Source of the DNA: Phycisphaerales bacterium
GTDB lineage: Bacteria > Planctomycetota > Phycisphaerae > Phycisphaerales > SM1A02
DNA length: 64,000 nucleotides
Assembly (NCBI GenBank): GCA_014238205.1
Contig: JABABM010000013.1
Coordinates: 1 to 64,000 of the forward strand
Direction of reading: 5' to 3'
Position numbers and translations under genes: made by a program. The notes under the pieces were generated by a model, which was not told the DNA's origin, did not search any database, and worked only from the letters and a program-made list of their open reading frames with translations. Position 1 is the stretch's first letter. The number at the start of each line of letters is the position of its first letter. This document shows positions 54,802 to 64,000 of the stretch, piece after piece.

Positions 54802-54858
54802 TGGCTGATCCCCCGTGGTCACCACCATCCTACACCCTCCTCCATCCATACAACACCA

Positions 54859-54886
54859 CAGCACCCCCGCTCCCGCGGGGGTGCTG
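54859..54886 (-). terminator. Strong GC-rich hairpin after the dockerin gene at 54922
   Basis: CAGCACCCCCGC and GCGGGGGTGCTG form a perfect 12-base stem with loop TCCC. It lies just beyond the stop of the reverse-strand gene at 54922 and upstream of the small operon. Same sequence type as the hairpins at 46775 and 63891. Confidence 0.7.
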
Positions 54887-54921
54887 TTGATCTTCTTCAT
54901 GTTGCGGCACGCACGTCTCGG

Positions 54922-55893: not shown

Positions 55894-56123
55894 CTTGATG
55901 TCTCCTGTACTGGGTTGGTACTCCTCCCCCCAACTTCGTACTTGAACCACCAACCTTAAAATGGATTCTTGTTCTCTACCGTGAGAACTGCCTAACAGCC
56001 TGAGATGGAACTTGAGTTGGTCAAACGATTTGTGAGTTAATACATGCGCCTCACAGCCCATTAAACTTCATTTCAATTTGAATGCGAGTGCTGACGTACA
56101 TCCCCCCACTCCTCCACAACCCA

Positions 56124-56177
56124 CCCGTCTTCACGGGGGTGTTGTTTAAGCAACAAAGGCCCCAGGCGATGCCGGGG
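56124..56177 (-). terminator. Compound hairpin region after the beta-propeller gene
   Basis: Three small stems occur in a row: CCCGT/ACGGG near 56124-56137, GTTG/CAAC at 56141-56154, and CCCC-A-GGC/GCC-GGGG at 56160-56177. They lie between the end of the gene at 56226 and the start of the gene at 55893, all on the reverse strand. The first part shares the TTCACGGG and GTGTTGTT pattern with the intergenic repeats near 62620 and 63900. Confidence 0.45.
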
Positions 56178-56225: not shown

Positions 56226-58133
56226 CTACTCGGGAAGACGAACGAACTTCGTCCACTTCCTGTAGTCACCAGTCTGGATTGACGCGTACAGCTCCGGTGC
56301 ATCGTCCGGGGTGTCCAGTTCAAGCGAATAGGTGCCCGCCCGGTGGAACTCGTCGACAGGACGGTCATGGAGCAGGCCGCCGAAGATGAAGACATTCATG
56401 ACCACGTGCCCATCCTCGGGCACCGTGTAGGTGATGGTGCTCGATGTTCCCCTGGTGATCGCCTTGATGGAGCAACGGTCGTTGTCGAAGGCGGGTTCAG
56501 TGGGTCGGTCCTGCCTGCCCGGTGAATACGGCGAATACCTGTACACCCGGTTGCCGACGGCGTACATCTCGTCCTCGCTCACCTTCAGGAACTTGTTGAT
56601 GACATCGCCGTACACCAGGTCGATCTGGATGGGCTCCCATGTCTCGCCACCGTTCCAGGTCTGGAGGGTGTGGCTGGGATATCCGCCGATCCACCCCACC
56701 TGGTCGTTGAGAAACCCGATGCCGTTGGCATGGAACCCGTCGGTGAACGACCGTTCCGTCCAGGTTGCACCGCCGTCGTAGGTCTGGATCCACTTGTCGA
56801 TGTCGTATCCACCTGAACAGACTGCGTAGCCGAACAGGTCGGAGGCAAACCCCATCTTCCAGTAATGGCCGGACTGGTTCGTCTTCCTGGTGACCCAGGT
56901 CACCCCACCGTCCTCCGTGTACACGAGTGATGCTCGGCCCTGCAGGTTCGAACCGGTGATGTAACCGCGCAGGGGTGTCTCGAAGTGGATATCGACGAGG
57001 GTCCAGTAACTGTCATTCAGATCCCGCGAGACCCACGTCGCCCCCCCATCGGTTGACGAGACGAAGTACGCCTCTCCGGCATACCGCCCGGCACCATGAA
57101 TCGTGTCTGCGTCGACTGCCTGGATGCCACAGATGCCATCGGGAATCGGGCCATCAATGGCGCTCAGCGGAACGGCTGTCCAGGTGAGTCCTCCGTCGTC
57201 GGTGACATACAGGGGGTTGGTATCGGTCGTGTGACCGATCCAGCTTCCGGGTCCGAGATTCCCGACGAAACCGTGCAGTTCATCGGAGAACGAGATCGTC
57301 CTGAAGGATGTGCCGGGCTGATTCGCCACGAGCAGCCAGCTGTCACCGGCATCCGTCGACTTCCAGATTTCACCACTGACGTTGCAGATCCAGATGGTGT
57401 CGCCGATGACATCGATGCTGTCATGGTGCAGGAAGGGCGCTACTGGCGAGTTGATCAGCACCTCCCATGAACCCTGCAGCGGGCACGGGCCCCAGCCGGC
57501 GATGACCTGAAGCAGGTCATTGACCCCGACCTGACCATCCTCGTCGAGGTCCTCGGGGCAATCTTCACACGTACCCCATTGGGAGATGATCGCCAGAATG
57601 TCCATAACGTTCGTCACCTGGTCCTCGTTGACGTCGGTCGGGCAGTACTGCGGGATGTCCTGGTCGTTGTTGTTCAGGGTCAGCATGCCGCTGCCGAATG
57701 AATCTTCCTGCCAGCCGCCGACGCGGATCAGGTACTGGCAATCCGGTTGCGCAGGGAACTCGACGACGGAGTGATATGGCTGGCAATCGGAATTGCCGGC
57801 GGCATCGCCACTGCAAGCGAGGTACTCCAGTCCATCACAGCCTGCATCCGTTGCCTGGTAGACAATGATGCTCGTGTCGAAGGAGTCCGGGTCGCATGTC
57901 GAGAGCGTGACCACGCCCTCGTTCCTGGCGTGGTATGAGAACCAGATGTCCTTGTGCAAGCCTCCCATGAGGGTGCACTCGCTGTAGAGGTCGTACTCGC
58001 TGTCGGTGTGGTTCGTCGTGTCATAGGACGTGATGCCCTCGTCGACTGCAATCGGATCGGCGCACGTATCACCATCGACGCCGAGGCCCTGGACACCGAC
58101 TGCCGCCATGAGAATGATGGTGTGTACTGGCAT
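56226..58133 (-). CDS. Secreted beta-propeller (BNR/Ycf48-like) protein with internal dockerin pair
   Basis: A 635-residue secreted protein (signal PVHTIILMAAVGVQG). Residues about 22-150 form a beta-sandwich of the pre-peptidase or surface type (TCADPIAVDEGITSYDTT, HKDIWFSYHA). Two dockerin-like EF-hands sit in the middle (TDVNEDQVTNVMDILAIISQ, EDLDEDGQVGVNDLLQVIAG). Then come six or so propeller blades with the BNR/Asp-box (STDAGDSWLLV, TDDGGLTWTAV, STDGGATWVSR, TEDGGVTWVTR, TYDGGATWTER, TWNGGETWEPI), like Ycf48/HCF136 or sialidase-type propellers. A short beta domain ends it. No catalytic site is evident; probably binding or structural. AGGAG precedes the ATG. Confidence 0.88.
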   Translation of the reverse strand: MPVHTIILMAAVGVQGLGVDGDTCADPIAVDEGITSYDTTNHTDSEYDLYSECTLMGGLHKDIWFSYHARNEGVVTLSTCDPDSFDTSIIVYQATDAGCDGLEYLACSGDAAGNSDCQPYHSVVEFPAQPDCQYLIRVGGWQEDSFGSGMLTLNNNDQDIPQYCPTDVNEDQVTNVMDILAIISQWGTCEDCPEDLDEDGQVGVNDLLQVIAGWGPCPLQGSWEVLINSPVAPFLHHDSIDVIGDTIWICNVSGEIWKSTDAGDSWLLVANQPGTSFRTISFSDELHGFVGNLGPGSWIGHTTDTNPLYVTDDGGLTWTAVPLSAIDGPIPDGICGIQAVDADTIHGAGRYAGEAYFVSSTDGGATWVSRDLNDSYWTLVDIHFETPLRGYITGSNLQGRASLVYTEDGGVTWVTRKTNQSGHYWKMGFASDLFGYAVCSGGYDIDKWIQTYDGGATWTERSFTDGFHANGIGFLNDQVGWIGGYPSHTLQTWNGGETWEPIQIDLVYGDVINKFLKVSEDEMYAVGNRVYRYSPYSPGRQDRPTEPAFDNDRCSIKAITRGTSSTITYTVPEDGHVVMNVFIFGGLLHDRPVDEFHRAGTYSLELDTPDDAPELYASIQTGDYRKWTKFVRLPE

Positions 58134-58203
58134 GCATCCTGCTCCTGAGCATCATTGAACCACCCCAGGCACGGCCAATCAAGAAATCAATTCAAACTCC
58201 CCT

Positions 58204-58279
58204 CCTGCCGCCCAGAAACGCTCACTATCCTCTGAATTGCCAGAATTTCATTGCCCAGGTTCGGCCCATCAACTGTAAT
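58204..58279 (+). promoter_or_regulatory. Conserved promoter module, copy A
   Basis: An upstream element CCTGCCGCCCAGAAACGC (from 58204) is followed by CTGAAT and AATTTC words, then TTGCCC at 58251-58256, a 17-base spacer and TGTAAT at 58274-58279. The gene start is at 58300. The upstream element lies 47 bases before the -35, exactly as in copy B at 62674, and the same module begins at 63951 (46 bases). Confidence 0.65.
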
Positions 58280-58299
58280 GGACAGTTGGAGAAAGAACC

Positions 58300-59358
58300 A
58301 TGAGACACCTGGTTGCATGTGTAATTGTGCTTGGGCTAGCCGGCTCGAGCCTTGCCGATACCTGGACCGTCGATGACGACGGACCGGCTGACTTCGACAA
58401 CATTCAAAGTGCGATCATCCTGGCTTCACCCGGCGACACGGTACTGGTCGCACCGGGAACATATACGAGGCTCTTTCTCAACAACTACGTGATTGATCTG
58501 ATGGGCAAGCCGATTTCGGTCCGTGCAACGGGATCTCCCGGCAAGACCATCCTCGACGGCGAAGGACTGTGCTTGAATGTGGTTCAATGCAGTACCGGCG
58601 AAATAGCCAATACACGCATTGAAGGATTCACCATCACTGGTGGCAGCAGCAGCGGAATCCTCATCAACGAAGGGTCGAATGGAAGTGTGCCCAGCTGGCC
58701 CACGATCATCGGGTGCACGATCTCCGGAAACCCACAAGGGGCAAAAGTCCTGGGGACCAGTTCCCTTGTCCCTGAGTTCATCGACTGCACGATCGAGAAC
58801 AACACCGCGGCAGGAATCTATCTCGGACTCGCATCCTCCCTGACAGGCTGCACGATCAGGAACAATACCGGCGACTATGGAATGTTTGCGAACGACAACA
58901 GCGTCATCAGTGACTGCGAAATCACGGGAAACAACTGCGCGTATGGCGGCGTCGTCTGCGGATCCGCCGTGTTCACGCGATGCATCGTTTCGGGCAACAC
59001 GGCTCTTACGGGAATTGGTGGTGGAATCAGGAGCAATCCAGCCAGCCCCGACCCGACACTGTCGGAGACCAGCGTGTGTGACAACGTTCCAAACCAGGTC
59101 GACGGTGGGTACATCGATGCCGGGGGCAACACGATTGCAGAAGAATGCCCGCCGACAGGAGCGTGCTGCACGAACGGCGGGTGTGTCGCTGCCCTGGAGG
59201 AAGACTGCCTCGCCTTCTACGGCACATGGCATGGTGTAGGCACGACCTGCTATGAACAGAACTGCCCAGAACCCTGCCAGGGCGACGTGAACACCGACGG
59301 CACCGTCGACGTGCTCGACCTGCTTGACGTAATTTCGGCCTGGGGCCCCTGCCCGTAA
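58300..59358 (+). CDS. Secreted parallel beta-helix protein with C-terminal dockerin
   Basis: A 352-residue protein with signal peptide (RHLVACVIVLGLAGSSLA); GGAGAAAG precedes the ATG. The cap DNIQSAIILASPGDTVLVAP is followed by beta-helix coils (IEGFTITGG, PTIIGCTISGN, PEFIDCTIENN, SSLTGCTIRNN, SVISDCEITGN, AVFTRCIVSGN). Near the end is the cysteine segment GACCTNGGCVAALEEDC, and the protein closes with one dockerin-like EF-hand (GDVNTDGTVDVLDLLDVISA). The layout is that of the protein at 10870, but shorter. Polysaccharide binding or lyase activity is possible; no catalytic residues can be named. Confidence 0.87.
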   Translation: MRHLVACVIVLGLAGSSLADTWTVDDDGPADFDNIQSAIILASPGDTVLVAPGTYTRLFLNNYVIDLMGKPISVRATGSPGKTILDGEGLCLNVVQCSTGEIANTRIEGFTITGGSSSGILINEGSNGSVPSWPTIIGCTISGNPQGAKVLGTSSLVPEFIDCTIENNTAAGIYLGLASSLTGCTIRNNTGDYGMFANDNSVISDCEITGNNCAYGGVVCGSAVFTRCIVSGNTALTGIGGGIRSNPASPDPTLSETSVCDNVPNQVDGGYIDAGGNTIAEECPPTGACCTNGGCVAALEEDCLAFYGTWHGVGTTCYEQNCPEPCQGDVNTDGTVDVLDLLDVISAWGPCP

Positions 59359-59390
59359 CACTCGGGCCATCCCCCACTCCAGCTTGGATT

Positions 59391-61805
59391 TCAGGGGAGT
59401 GACGAGGCGAGAGGTCGCAGTTCGACAGGATCGTCATCGGCTTCGATCTCGATGATCAGTTCCGGTATGCCGAGGGACTCGATCTTCTCGGGCTTCCATC
59501 TCTTTCGCTCCAGTTCACCTTCGAGCTTTCGCAGTTCCGGGATCTCGCTTCGAGCCGCACCGCCGTACTGGCGGAGGATTGCAAGGCAACGATTGATCCG
59601 GTTGTCCAACCCCCACCGATCTGGATCGATCATCGACATGCAGAGTGGCACACCCTCGGCAATCCGGTGCTCGGCCAGGACCTCCAGTCCTGCAAGTCGG
59701 ATGCCGTCGGCGAACATGATGCCGCTGGGCGCCGGTTCGATGATTGCCTCGTGTATCGCCGGAAGCAGTGGTTCGATCGCCTCGTAGGAAAGGTTCTTGT
59801 AGACGGAACTGAAACTCTCCCTTGCACGTCCGTCCTCGTTGCCAAGCCCGGCAACGACTGCGATCTGCAGTGCTTCCGGGTCTACGCCTTCCAGCGAGCG
59901 ACCGAGCATGCCATTTCGTTGATCGAACAGGGCGAAGCACAGGTAACGCTGCTGCATCCCGCGTGGGTCGGCAGCGTCAGGACCTTCCGCAAGCATCGCC
60001 AGCAGATCGGGCATGACCGGCATCGCAGGCTGGCCGATCGCGGCAATCGCTTCTGCAGCCTTGATCCGGAGCCAGAGGTCGTCGGCTTCGAGTTTCGATC
60101 GAATCGCAGGGATCAGCGGTGCCGCCCGTTCCTTGAGCATGATCGCAGCCTGGCAGGCGCCAATCTGGGCATGCAGGTCCCCGTCGCGAAGCAACAGTTC
60201 CAGGGCAGGCGTCGGATCGCCTTCGCGACGAGCGAGTTCGATCGCGGCACGTTCACGCACCACGGGCGACCAGCTCTCGAGATTCCCCACCAGCGTCTGC
60301 TCGGAACGGTCAGCCCACGTCGTAAGACGGGTCCGAGACCCCCAGTCCCGCCCATCGGCAACGAGTGACTCGGCGGTCTCGCGAGTGACCTGGGGAACCA
60401 TGCTTGGGCTGCGACCTGCGAGATAGGTCGTGCCCAGGGGTTGCGCATAGGCAAGCAGGAAGGCGCCGGTCGCGTCCCAGCCACCGTAGCTGTCAGGCTT
60501 CGCCTGGGGAGGCCCTTGGTGCTGGAATGACCCATCCCATCGACGCGCAAGGTCGTAGTACCAGCCGAACTCCTCCATCCACGCCCCGCTTGCGCGCGGA
60601 CCAGACAGCGCGACGCCTGGCATCGCCCAGAGCATGTTGAAGTAGTTGCCGGTGTGCCCGTTGTCCCGTTCGTTTCCATGCGAAGCGACACTCATGCGAG
60701 AGAAGTACTCGGCGGCCTCGGCATCCTCCAGCAGGTTGAAGAGTACGGCGGAGACGCCGTTCTTCCCATTGTCGTCGTGGGCCTCGATCCACGGGTGGTG
60801 GTCGCCGTAGGGAACGCTCCCCTTGCCGACGTAGAAACGGATGAGTCGAGCGCTTTTCTCGATCGCCTCGTCGAGTTCGGGATTCTCGACGCCGGCCTTG
60901 CGGGCGAGCACCAGGGAGACACTCAGCGGCAGCCCGGGGGCGTTCATCATGCCGTATCCGGCCAACCGACCATTCCCTTGCACGAATCGATGACCCCAGG
61001 ATCCAACTGCGCTCTGACCGCGAACGATCTCCATCGTGATGCGCTCGAGATCCGGCATGAAGGTGCGATCGCCGGTGGCAAGCACGTATTCCGCCATCAG
61101 GATGTTCACGGGGCCATACCACCACGAATGCAGTGACCTTCGTTCAAGATCGGAGTACGTCGATGCCCACTCGACTTCTCTTCTCACCAGCGGGAGGTAC
61201 TCGGGATTGCCGCTGGCGAGCAATGCCAGCGCATTGAGGGAACGTTCGATGGGGTTGCCCTTGCCCGGGTTGTCCGCCATCTGTTCCGCCAGGGCGGCGC
61301 ATCCATCCTCGAAGATGCGTGTCGACTTCGAGCAGTCGAAGGGGGCGGTGGAGGCGTAGGGCCCGAGAACCGGGAGTGGCACCGTGATCTCCTTGCGTCG
61401 ACCATCACGCCACCTTTCAAGAAGCAGCTTGCCGTTTGAGGCCTCGGCATCGCTTATTGCGCGACCCAACTCGGTTCGCGGGTCGAACCTGAATGACCGG
61501 CCAGCAGCCCCGAGAATCACGTCACCGGGTTGCAGGATGCCATCGGCGGGAGAGCCGGCCTCGACGCTGGTGACCATGATCTGTCTGGCCTCGGAGGTTT
61601 CCAGCTTGTTGCTGTACATCCATCCGCGCGCACCGGTCGGTCCGAGATTCCAATCATGCGTCGAGTTCTCGGGGATGGAACCGCCCTCGGTGAAGTCGGG
61701 AATGTCCGGATTCACGTGTACGTCGGCGGCCGGGGAAGGTGCAACGAGCATGCACAGCAACACGATGGGTGCAATGAATGATTTCCGAGTAGCCATACCC
61801 CACAT
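59391..61805 (-). CDS. DUF6288-like secreted protein with PDZ, helical toroid and HEAT-like repeats
   Basis: ATG at 61805 has an AGGGGAG box seven bases upstream; ATG at 61796 (MATRKSF) is an alternative. The roughly 800-residue protein has a signal peptide (SFIAPIVLLCMLVAPSPAA), a PDZ-like domain with the DGILQPGDVILGAAGRSFRF signature, and a large alpha/alpha-barrel region (PGKGNPIERSLNALALLASG, SVPYGDHHPWIEAHDDNG, WDGSFQHQGPPQAKPDS). It ends with HEAT-like repeats (RIKAAEAIAAIGQPAMPVMP). This matches planctomycete DUF6288 proteins. Function unknown; the toroid resembles those that bind or cleave glycans or prenylated peptides. No dockerin is present, unlike its neighbours. Confidence 0.87.
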   Translation of the reverse strand: MWGMATRKSFIAPIVLLCMLVAPSPAADVHVNPDIPDFTEGGSIPENSTHDWNLGPTGARGWMYSNKLETSEARQIMVTSVEAGSPADGILQPGDVILGAAGRSFRFDPRTELGRAISDAEASNGKLLLERWRDGRRKEITVPLPVLGPYASTAPFDCSKSTRIFEDGCAALAEQMADNPGKGNPIERSLNALALLASGNPEYLPLVRREVEWASTYSDLERRSLHSWWYGPVNILMAEYVLATGDRTFMPDLERITMEIVRGQSAVGSWGHRFVQGNGRLAGYGMMNAPGLPLSVSLVLARKAGVENPELDEAIEKSARLIRFYVGKGSVPYGDHHPWIEAHDDNGKNGVSAVLFNLLEDAEAAEYFSRMSVASHGNERDNGHTGNYFNMLWAMPGVALSGPRASGAWMEEFGWYYDLARRWDGSFQHQGPPQAKPDSYGGWDATGAFLLAYAQPLGTTYLAGRSPSMVPQVTRETAESLVADGRDWGSRTRLTTWADRSEQTLVGNLESWSPVVRERAAIELARREGDPTPALELLLRDGDLHAQIGACQAAIMLKERAAPLIPAIRSKLEADDLWLRIKAAEAIAAIGQPAMPVMPDLLAMLAEGPDAADPRGMQQRYLCFALFDQRNGMLGRSLEGVDPEALQIAVVAGLGNEDGRARESFSSVYKNLSYEAIEPLLPAIHEAIIEPAPSGIMFADGIRLAGLEVLAEHRIAEGVPLCMSMIDPDRWGLDNRINRCLAILRQYGGAARSEIPELRKLEGELERKRWKPEKIESLGIPELIIEIEADDDPVELRPLASSLP

Positions 61806-61853
61806 CCTACGACTCCCCTCTTGCCGCCTCAAGAACACGTGTTGTTTTTGGCA

Positions 61854-61883
61854 TTGACCTGCTGCCGCAAACAGGTCTAATAC
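61854..61883 (+). promoter_or_regulatory. Candidate sigma-70 promoter for the dioxygenase-like gene
   Basis: TTGACC at 61854-61859 and TAATAC at 61878-61883 are 18 bases apart, about 50 bases before the ATG at 61933. Both boxes are near consensus. A CCCCTCTTGCCGCC word at 61815-61828 recalls the upstream element of the conserved promoter modules, but its spacing to the -35 differs. Confidence 0.55.
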
Positions 61884-61932
61884 GTATTCCCCGGGCTTGG
61901 CCATATGAGTCCCTGCAGGAGAGTGACCTTCC

Positions 61933-62610
61933 ATGCGATGGTTCAATACAACCGTCATCATCTTCCTGACCTTTGCATGCACTGCATCGGCCGGTCCCGT
62001 GTGCGAACTAACTCGCCCGGATGCCGAGGGTCCATACTGGATTCCAGGCTCGCCTGAACGATCAGATCTGCGCAACCCCGGGGATGGTCCCCTGCTTGAT
62101 CTGCACCTGTCCGTAGTCGACCTTGATTGCATGCCTGTCCCGGGCGCCTGGATCGACATCTGGCATACAGACCCCGATGGCGGCTATGACAACAACGGCT
62201 GGGGATACCGCGGACACCACTTCACCGACGGCACAGGGGGATCACTCCTCGAGACGGTGGTTCCCGGCATGTATCCAGGTCGCACACGCCACATCCACGT
62301 GAAGGTTCGTGGTGCGACACCGACCACCTTGACAACGCAGTTGTACTTTCCAGACGTGCCTGAAAATGAGAATGACGGTCTCTACCATCCGGACCTCGAG
62401 GTCACGGTCCTCGAAGAAGATGCCGAGGGCAACATGATCGCCGAGTTCCTCTTCGTACTCGAGGAGACGAATCCCTGCCCGGCGGATGTTGACGGTGATG
62501 GCCAAGTCAACGTGTCCGATCTGCTTGCCGTCATCGCAGGCTGGAACGACCCATACGACGTCGATGACCTGTTGATCGTAATTTCGGAGTGGGGCAACAA
62601 CTGCCCCTGA
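61933..62610 (+). CDS. Secreted intradiol dioxygenase-like protein with dockerin pair
   Basis: GGAGAG precedes the ATG. The 225-residue protein has a signal peptide (RWFNTTVIIFLTFACTASA) and a single intradiol ring-cleavage dioxygenase-like domain: PDAEGPYWIPG, PVPGAWIDIWHTDPDGGYD, then PGMYPGRTRHIHVKVRG. The four iron ligands expected for the family are present: Tyr85, Tyr114, His120 and His122. The domain is minimal and lacks the N-terminal linker of catechol 1,2-dioxygenases. Two dockerin-like modules end the protein; the second is shortened (VDDLLIVISEWG). Family members cleave catechols with O2; here the substrate may be an aromatic released outside the cell. Confidence 0.88.
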   Translation: MRWFNTTVIIFLTFACTASAGPVCELTRPDAEGPYWIPGSPERSDLRNPGDGPLLDLHLSVVDLDCMPVPGAWIDIWHTDPDGGYDNNGWGYRGHHFTDGTGGSLLETVVPGMYPGRTRHIHVKVRGATPTTLTTQLYFPDVPENENDGLYHPDLEVTVLEEDAEGNMIAEFLFVLEETNPCPADVDGDGQVNVSDLLAVIAGWNDPYDVDDLLIVISEWGNNCP

Positions 62611-62615
62611 CTCCA

Positions 62616-62643
62616 CAGCACCCCCGACTTCACGGGTGTGTTG
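62616..62643 (+). terminator. Hairpin after the dioxygenase-like gene
   Basis: CAGCACCCC...TTCACGGGTGTGTTG forms an imperfect hairpin just after the stop at 62610, followed by TTGTCGGGGG. It aligns base by base with the perfect hairpin at 63891 and is part of the repeated intergenic module. Confidence 0.5.
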
Positions 62644-62673
62644 TTGTCGGGGGCCATGCTTGTTTGGTCCCCC

Positions 62674-62749
62674 CCTGCCGCCCAGGAACGCCGCCTGGCC
62701 CTGAATCTGCTCAATTTCCTTTGCTTTGGACACGCCCCGCTGCTGTAAT
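62674..62749 (+). promoter_or_regulatory. Conserved promoter module, copy B
   Basis: CCTGCCGCCCAGGAACGC starts at 62674. Then come CTGAAT and AATTTC words, TTGCTT at 62721-62726, a 17-base spacer and TGTAAT at 62744-62749. It precedes the cupredoxin-like gene at 62799. Upstream element, -35 and -10 have exactly the spacing of copy A. Confidence 0.65.
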
Positions 62750-62798
62750 GGGGTCTTCGCGGCACCCGCCGCCATCACCTTGTGGGAGACAAGACCAA

Positions 62799-63857
62799 AT
62801 GCGATATCCATGCCTCTTGATCGTGGCGACGTTGTTGCTTGCCAGCGCGACCTTCGCTGAAACACATACCGTGACTACCTCCGGGTTCTCCTTCGACCCC
62901 TCGTCGCTCGATGTACAACCAGGCGACGAGATCATCTTCGAGATCGCCGGTACACACACTGCAACCTCTGGATCGTCATGTGCCAGCGACGGCCTGTTTG
63001 ATTTCAGCGCTGGAACCAATAGCTGGACAGTGCCGGATTCGGTTGCTGGAACCACTGTTGACTATTTCTGCGTGCCACACTGCGCAATGGGCATGACCGG
63101 TGTCATCAACGTCGCCAGCCTCGGGGGCGGAGACACCATGGCTCTGATCTCTGTTACATCCGCAGCGGCAGATCATTTTTACTGGTACAGGAATGACTCT
63201 ATCGGTGGGGACACATTCTACATCGACACTGACACGCATCATCCTTACCAGATCGCGATCGAGGTGGAAGGCAGCTGGGACATCGATGTTACCTCGGCCA
63301 CTAATGTGTACGTCTATACCGTAGGCGCCGGCACGGTTGCGCTTACCACCGGCACCGTCACGCTTGGTGACGGATATCACATCCTCTTTAACGATCCCGA
63401 CAACTACAGCTTGCTTGAATTTGATCTGCCCGGTCCGGCCATGATGGGGACGGGATCAGAACCACTGTGGGAAGATGTTGAAGTGTTTCACGGTTATGTT
63501 GAATGGAAGATCAGGAACGGAGCCATGACGTATCGTTACATGGGAAACAATGCAGCCAGTTCCCTGTTTGCCACACTTAATCAACCTGGTGGAACCGGTG
63601 AAATTGAAGTCTCGTACATCGGTGATACCGAATGCCTTTCGTTGACATTGCCCGCGGAACTTGAAGAGGGTGCTGTAAGTGTGCCCGCTGGTTTGCACTA
63701 CTTTGATGCGGGCTATACCGGCACCGGCCCCTGGACGTTGTACGTCGCGATTGGCGGTGCGCCGGAATTCTGCGATGAAGACATCAACGAGGATGGCGAG
63801 GTCAATATTCACGACCTGCTGGCCATCATCAGCGCCTGGGGCTCCACCTGCCCGTAA
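62799..63857 (+). CDS. Secreted cupredoxin-like protein with C-terminal dockerin
   Basis: ATG at 62799 follows a GGGAG box; the long upstream frame crosses the promoter and is rejected. After a signal peptide (RYPCLLIVATLLLASATFA) residues 22-102 form a plastocyanin-like domain: GFSFDPSSLDVQPGDEIIFE, His53 in GTHTAT, and Cys91, His94 and Met99 in YFCVPHCAMGM, a full type-1 copper set. The next 200 residues are beta-rich and unknown, and one dockerin-like EF-hand closes the protein (EDINEDGEVNIHDLLAIISA). A small blue copper protein tethered to the surface could carry electrons for extracellular redox enzymes. Confidence 0.9.
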   Translation: MRYPCLLIVATLLLASATFAETHTVTTSGFSFDPSSLDVQPGDEIIFEIAGTHTATSGSSCASDGLFDFSAGTNSWTVPDSVAGTTVDYFCVPHCAMGMTGVINVASLGGGDTMALISVTSAAADHFYWYRNDSIGGDTFYIDTDTHHPYQIAIEVEGSWDIDVTSATNVYVYTVGAGTVALTTGTVTLGDGYHILFNDPDNYSLLEFDLPGPAMMGTGSEPLWEDVEVFHGYVEWKIRNGAMTYRYMGNNAASSLFATLNQPGGTGEIEVSYIGDTECLSLTLPAELEEGAVSVPAGLHYFDAGYTGTGPWTLYVAIGGAPEFCDEDINEDGEVNIHDLLAIISAWGSTCP

Positions 63858-63888
63858 CCGTTCGGGTCACCCCACTCCATATACAACC

Positions 63889-64000
63889 CCACAGCACCCC
63901 CGTGTTCACGGGGGTGCTGTTGTTGGGGGCATGCTTCTTTGGGCCCCCCTCCTGCCGCCCTTGAACGCCGCCTGGCCCTGCAATGTAGGATTTCCATTGC
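63889..64000 (+). repeat. Intergenic repeat: terminator followed by promoter module, copy C (cut by window end)
   Basis: From CACAGCACCCCCG through GGGGGCATGCTT and CCTGCCGCCC to the ATTTCCATTGC word at the window edge, this stretch aligns with 62614-62724. It joins the terminator of the cupredoxin-like gene to what should be the promoter of a gene beyond the window: the -35 TTGC begins at 63997. Confidence 0.75.
63891..63920 (+). terminator. Strong GC-rich hairpin after the cupredoxin-like gene
   Basis: ACAGCACCCCCGTG (63891-63904) and CACGGGGGTGCTGT (63907-63920) are perfectly complementary across two bases, giving a 12-base or longer stem once the loop is allowed for. TGTTG follows. This is the best preserved copy of the repeated terminator type. 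Confidence 0.75.

Follow-up and report, generated by a model that had tools for sequence, protein, structure and literature searches.

A short promoter module recurs in front of genes for secreted proteins in the 64,000-nucleotide stretch of DNA analysed here (the window, which covers positions 1-64000 of a contig 67,041 bases long in a 2.44-Mb draft genome of 78 contigs). With somewhat better than even confidence, we read it as a σ70-type, lineage-specific promoter with a probable activator site, which appears to have spread by exchange of 5′ or intergenic DNA among secreted-protein genes. Judged from the sequences, the promoter part on its own merits higher confidence than the whole, and the chances that a candidate activator binds the upstream region seem evenly balanced.

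Three copies of the module begin in the window, all on the plus strand. The upstream element, CCCCT-CCTGCCGCC-CAGA-AACGC in copy 1, lies at 58199..58221, 62669..62691 and 63946..63968. All coordinates in the original prediction are right. CCTGCCGCC starts at 58204, 62674 and 63951, is followed 13 nt on by AACGC (CCTGCCGCC-N4-AACGC) and stands 46-47 nt before a TTGCyy −35 box (at 58251, 62721 and 63997), and in the two complete copies (TGTAAT at 58274 and at 62744) the spacer between the boxes is 17 nt long. The promoter of copy 1 (58251..58279) consists of TTGCCC at 58251-58256, the spacer and a −10 TGTAAT at 58274-58279; that of copy 2 (62721..62749) consists of TTGCTT at 62721-62726, 17 nt and TGTAAT at 62744-62749. 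The window ends within the −35 of copy 3 (63997..64000), which is completed beyond it as TTGCCT-17-TGTAAT with its leader and gene, and position 66365 of the contig holds a fourth copy. Between element and −35, copy 1 carries the words CTGAAT...AATTTC (58232..58249, plus strand), which correspond to the imperfect palindrome CTGCAATGCAG-GATTTC of other copies. These two words had been described as shared; they are so in the copies at 58204, 62674 and 66365, but the copy at 63951 reads CTGCAAT...GATTTC. Dyads beside the −35 (GCAATG-N9-CATTGC, GAAAT-N5-ATTTC) differ from copy to copy.

Genome-wide tests were based on pattern and model searches. The recurrence is beyond chance: the exact pattern gave four matches in the whole genome, all within this cluster, and a reversed control gave none. 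When up to two mismatches were allowed, 24 more places appeared, every one overlapped by open reading frames, although this is a soft test since long open reading frames arise by chance in G+C-rich DNA. Use of the C-rich extension CCCCyCyTGCCGCC as the pattern additionally caught a solitary element at 61815 (see below).

The genes behind the four copies encode exported proteins and are unrelated. Copy 1 precedes a gene (58300..59358, plus strand) for a protein with a signal peptide, a right-handed beta-helix and a C-terminal dockerin, and copy 2 a gene (62799..63857, plus strand) for one with a signal peptide, a plastocyanin-like (cupredoxin) domain and a dockerin-like C-terminus read from the sequence. 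Behind copy 3 is a GH9 cellulase (contig 64074-66185; L005:74-2185) whose dockerin repeats are N-terminal, a layout also seen in its orthologues in three other genomes (G007, G008 and G014), and behind copy 4 an FG-GAP protein gene at 66490 that is cut by the contig end. A further exported protein, encoded at 61933-62610, has an intradiol-dioxygenase-like domain fused to dockerin-like repeats. Several dockerins near the module score below the Pfam cut-off and were partly read from the sequence. The proposal that a conserved module fronts genes for secreted proteins stands, but its extension to dockerin genes as a class does not: 27 dockerin hits were counted in the genome, the elements occur in a single 8-kb cluster, and in relatives the module stands before genes for beta-helix or FG-GAP proteins. 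The module is narrow and lineage-specific; it does not switch dockerin genes in general.

Copies 2-4 (62674, 63951 and 66365) are 83-84% identical over 215 nt and are paralogues of one block of ~250 nt, which comprises a terminator, the promoter, the leader, a ribosome-binding site and a signal peptide. The terminator hairpin that opens the block lies at 62614..62650 in copy 2 and at 63890..63922 in copy 3 (both plus strand), and the leader and ribosome-binding region of copy 2, CACCTTGTGGGAGA, at 62776..62789 (plus strand). The edges of the block are sharp, at −189 (the terminator) and about +60 (the end of the signal peptide); outside them nothing aligns, and the block fronts cupredoxin, GH9 cellulase and FG-GAP genes. 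Because the three copies derive from one duplicated block, their equal spacing was inherited by copying. Fixed spacing therefore loses its value as an independent sign of regulation in three of the four copies. A terminator hairpin of almost the same sequence each time, CACAGCACCCCCGTCTTCACGGGGGTGTTGTTG, occurs in the window at 54848-54889, 56106-56147, 62605-62646 and 63881-63922, on two other contigs of the same genome (C8 and C11) and in the relatives G002, G004, G008 and G099. It often directly follows dockerin genes, and two contigs of G008 (C45 and C50) end in or beside it.

A model spanning element to −10 was run against 181 genomes of the taxonomic family, after smaller searches; its filters were stricter, and weak matches were lost. 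Among the genomes used, the two others from the present genus are 65-70% complete. The set now stands at 12 promoter copies from four species, which belong to three genera: the present genome (including its contig C44), Phycisphaerales bacterium UBA3160 (G008), a member of the same genus as UBA3160 (G183), and G099. TGTAATG is present in all 12, and TTGCyy-17-TGTAAT in 11, with 16 nt in the remaining one, so that σ70-type spacing is kept. The leader, CAyCTTGTGGGArA, is likewise found in 11 of 12. In 9 of 12 copies the element precedes the −10 by 67-70 nt (copies 2-4 not being independent), and this nearly fixed spacing of a conserved upstream word, which the prediction had taken for an activator site, is as expected of one. 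In the other three (C44, G8a and G8c) it is absent or hardly recognisable, and thus is not obligatory. These counts make the promoter the best-conserved part of the module and the element the second, which can be lost. Conversely, relics with the element and no promoter occur in G004, on contig C50 of G008 and in G111.

The copy on C44 (about 116771-117263; L078:11771-12263) has the promoter and leader core without the element; it lies directly behind a tmRNA gene and its terminator and before a long RCC1/beta-helix/dockerin gene. On contig C17 of G004 (L077:15850-17100), two unrelated genes that look A+T-rich come after a terminator and a decayed element, as though inserted into the module. 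Weak model matches in G046, G023, G028, G024 and G002 were inspected and showed no module there. The leader pattern, searched in 84,980 genomes, was found only in UBA3160 and in 11 unrelated records, near the chance expectation, and viral scans gave one unrelated match, or 77 matches with a pattern that was too loose. A leader hairpin, GCGGC..GCCGC, was considered and rejected: it folds in most copies, yet no better than shuffled sequences, its paired positions do not covary, and pairing is just as good in a slid register.

The alternative that has to be weighed most seriously is common descent alone, in which the upstream word was carried along, without function, in duplicated 5′ blocks, and only the core promoter and leader matter. 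We regard this as unlikely, although several of the above observations fit it: copies 2-4 are similar throughout their length, C44, G8a and G8c retain promoter and leader without a clear element, and solitary elements exist. Against it stand the nearly constant distance of the element and the fact that the element outlasts the promoter spacer in copy 1 and in the copies of other genera. Copy 1 (58204) is older than copies 2-4 and is without the leader and signal peptide of their block. It was nevertheless recovered by an HMM trained without it (E=1e-9, 516 kb searched) and by an HMM from a single UBA3160 copy, of another genus (E=1.3e-5, 516 kb). In an ungapped comparison, copies 1 and 2 agree at 53 of 86 positions, and the best of about 900,000 other placements reaches 44. 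The matches of copy 1 amount to 17-18 of 19 positions in the element and 8-9 of 9 in the −10 region, compared with 7-9 of 17 in the promoter spacer, for blocks that were named once the alignment had been seen; in the copies outside the window, CCTGCCGCC is kept at 8-9 of 9 positions and the spacer at 5-9 of 17. Such conservation of element over spacer in copy 1 looks as a constrained upstream site would.

The solitary element (61815..61838, plus strand), CCCCT-CTTGCCGCC-TCAAG-AACAC, lies in a divergent intergenic region and is identical to the UBA3160 element at 20 of 21 positions. The promoter next to it differs (TTGACC at 61854) and is only 34 nt away, so the spacing of element and promoter is not universal. 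On the other side, the minus-strand gene at 59391-61799, which diverges from the dioxygenase gene, encodes a DUF6288 protein that has PDZ and HEAT regions, and the element overlaps a possible minus-strand promoter of the DUF6288 gene, TTGAGG-17-TAGGAT.

There are two further possibilities, both very improbable. The repeated unit might be a site-specific recombination or integron-like cassette-insertion site with the promoter as a passenger, which would fit the same intergenic DNA lying between unrelated genes and the breaks in homology near the same place, followed by unrelated DNA, in G004, on C50 of G008 and in G111. However, promoter spacing and leader are kept, which a recombination site would not need, an RNA family search at the module gave no Rfam match, and no integron integrase exceeds the curated cut-off in the draft genomes G000, G004 and G008 (matches below the cut-off occur in all 14 control genomes). 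Alternatively, the C-rich word might belong not to the promoter but to the tail of the transcript before it, as a second hairpin or termination aid. This would suit copies 2-4, where a terminator precedes the word and a G-run located 3′ of that terminator can pair with the word's C-run, but not copy 1, the 61815 element or the orthologous place in G099, all of which are divergent, with no transcript arriving from upstream.

For the promoter with a probable activator site, which we prefer, the following mechanism is proposed. TTGCyy-17-TGTAATG would be recognised by the housekeeping sigma factor of RNA polymerase. A −35 that departs from TTGACA is commonly compensated by activators, and the module resembles activator-dependent σ70 promoters in having a conserved site at a nearly fixed distance upstream of a non-TTGACA −35; it differs from them in that the distal site is no clean palindrome and that neither an activator gene nor a known binding motif was matched. 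The upstream region would comprise a distal word (in its fullest form CCTGCCGCCTCAAGAACGCCGCCTG) and the proximal imperfect palindrome. A putative activator would sit there, some 65-85 bp upstream of where the transcript begins, and activation would come from a regulator on the distal word and perhaps on the proximal CTGCAATGCAG palindrome as well. Where the arrangement is divergent, at 58204 and 61815, a single site could serve both genes; at copy 1, a candidate divergent promoter, TTGATT-17-TTCAAT (58154..58182, minus strand), may serve the minus-strand gene that ends at 58133. Since the same control DNA is reused before unrelated secreted-protein genes, the module genes are probably switched on alike.

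The module would have spread as whole blocks, intergenic or 5′, that were duplicated and exchanged. Some of these reach from the preceding terminator through the end of the signal peptide and one is a divergent intergenic region, and new mature domains would thereby acquire the same promoter, leader and export signal. Two comparisons between genomes bear on this. The GH9 orthologue of UBA3160 is 66% identical; its signal peptide differs, and the DNA in front of it shows no similarity. At copy 1, the left half of the intergenic region, which holds the candidate divergent promoter, is identical at 42 of 45 positions in G099, where the divergent gene differs from that of copy 1 save for a short dockerin-like match. 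Different genes have thus come to lie beside one and the same control DNA, on either side of it. The simplest mechanism would be recombination between repeated flanks, such as terminators, dockerin ends and signal peptides.

Horizontal regulatory transfer, or switching of intergenic regions, has been reported among strains of one species (PMC5890482). Its marks are one intergenic control region with different genes, or orthologous genes with non-homologous control regions, and both are found here, in the divergent region of copy 1 compared with G099 and in the GH9 orthologues, respectively. Unlike in that system, the exchange described here links paralogous places and different genera, and the signal peptide is often part of the block. 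In terminal reassortment of secreted proteins, reportedly described by Stavrinides et al. in 2006 (cited in PMC5895054), a 5′ end with its secretion signal is joined to a new mature part. The same kind of joining is seen here, but with a signal peptide for general export; the terminator and promoter are included, and nothing ties it to virulence.

A literature search for mapped promoters in this planctomycete order returned nothing specific, and the module offers a concrete, testable promoter with a candidate activator site. Its 12 copies allow a prediction of transcript starts that can be checked in metatranscriptomes. It is also a small natural example of how new domains in a bacterial group can come under a promoter and export signal that already exist. 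A broader and doubtful proposition, for which we would claim little confidence, is that Phycisphaerales have self-contained expression cassettes (terminator, regulated and partly divergent promoter, leader and signal peptide) that were repeatedly recombined onto unrelated domains. If this is true, the cassette family would be a dedicated one-step route to the secretion and co-regulation of new proteins.
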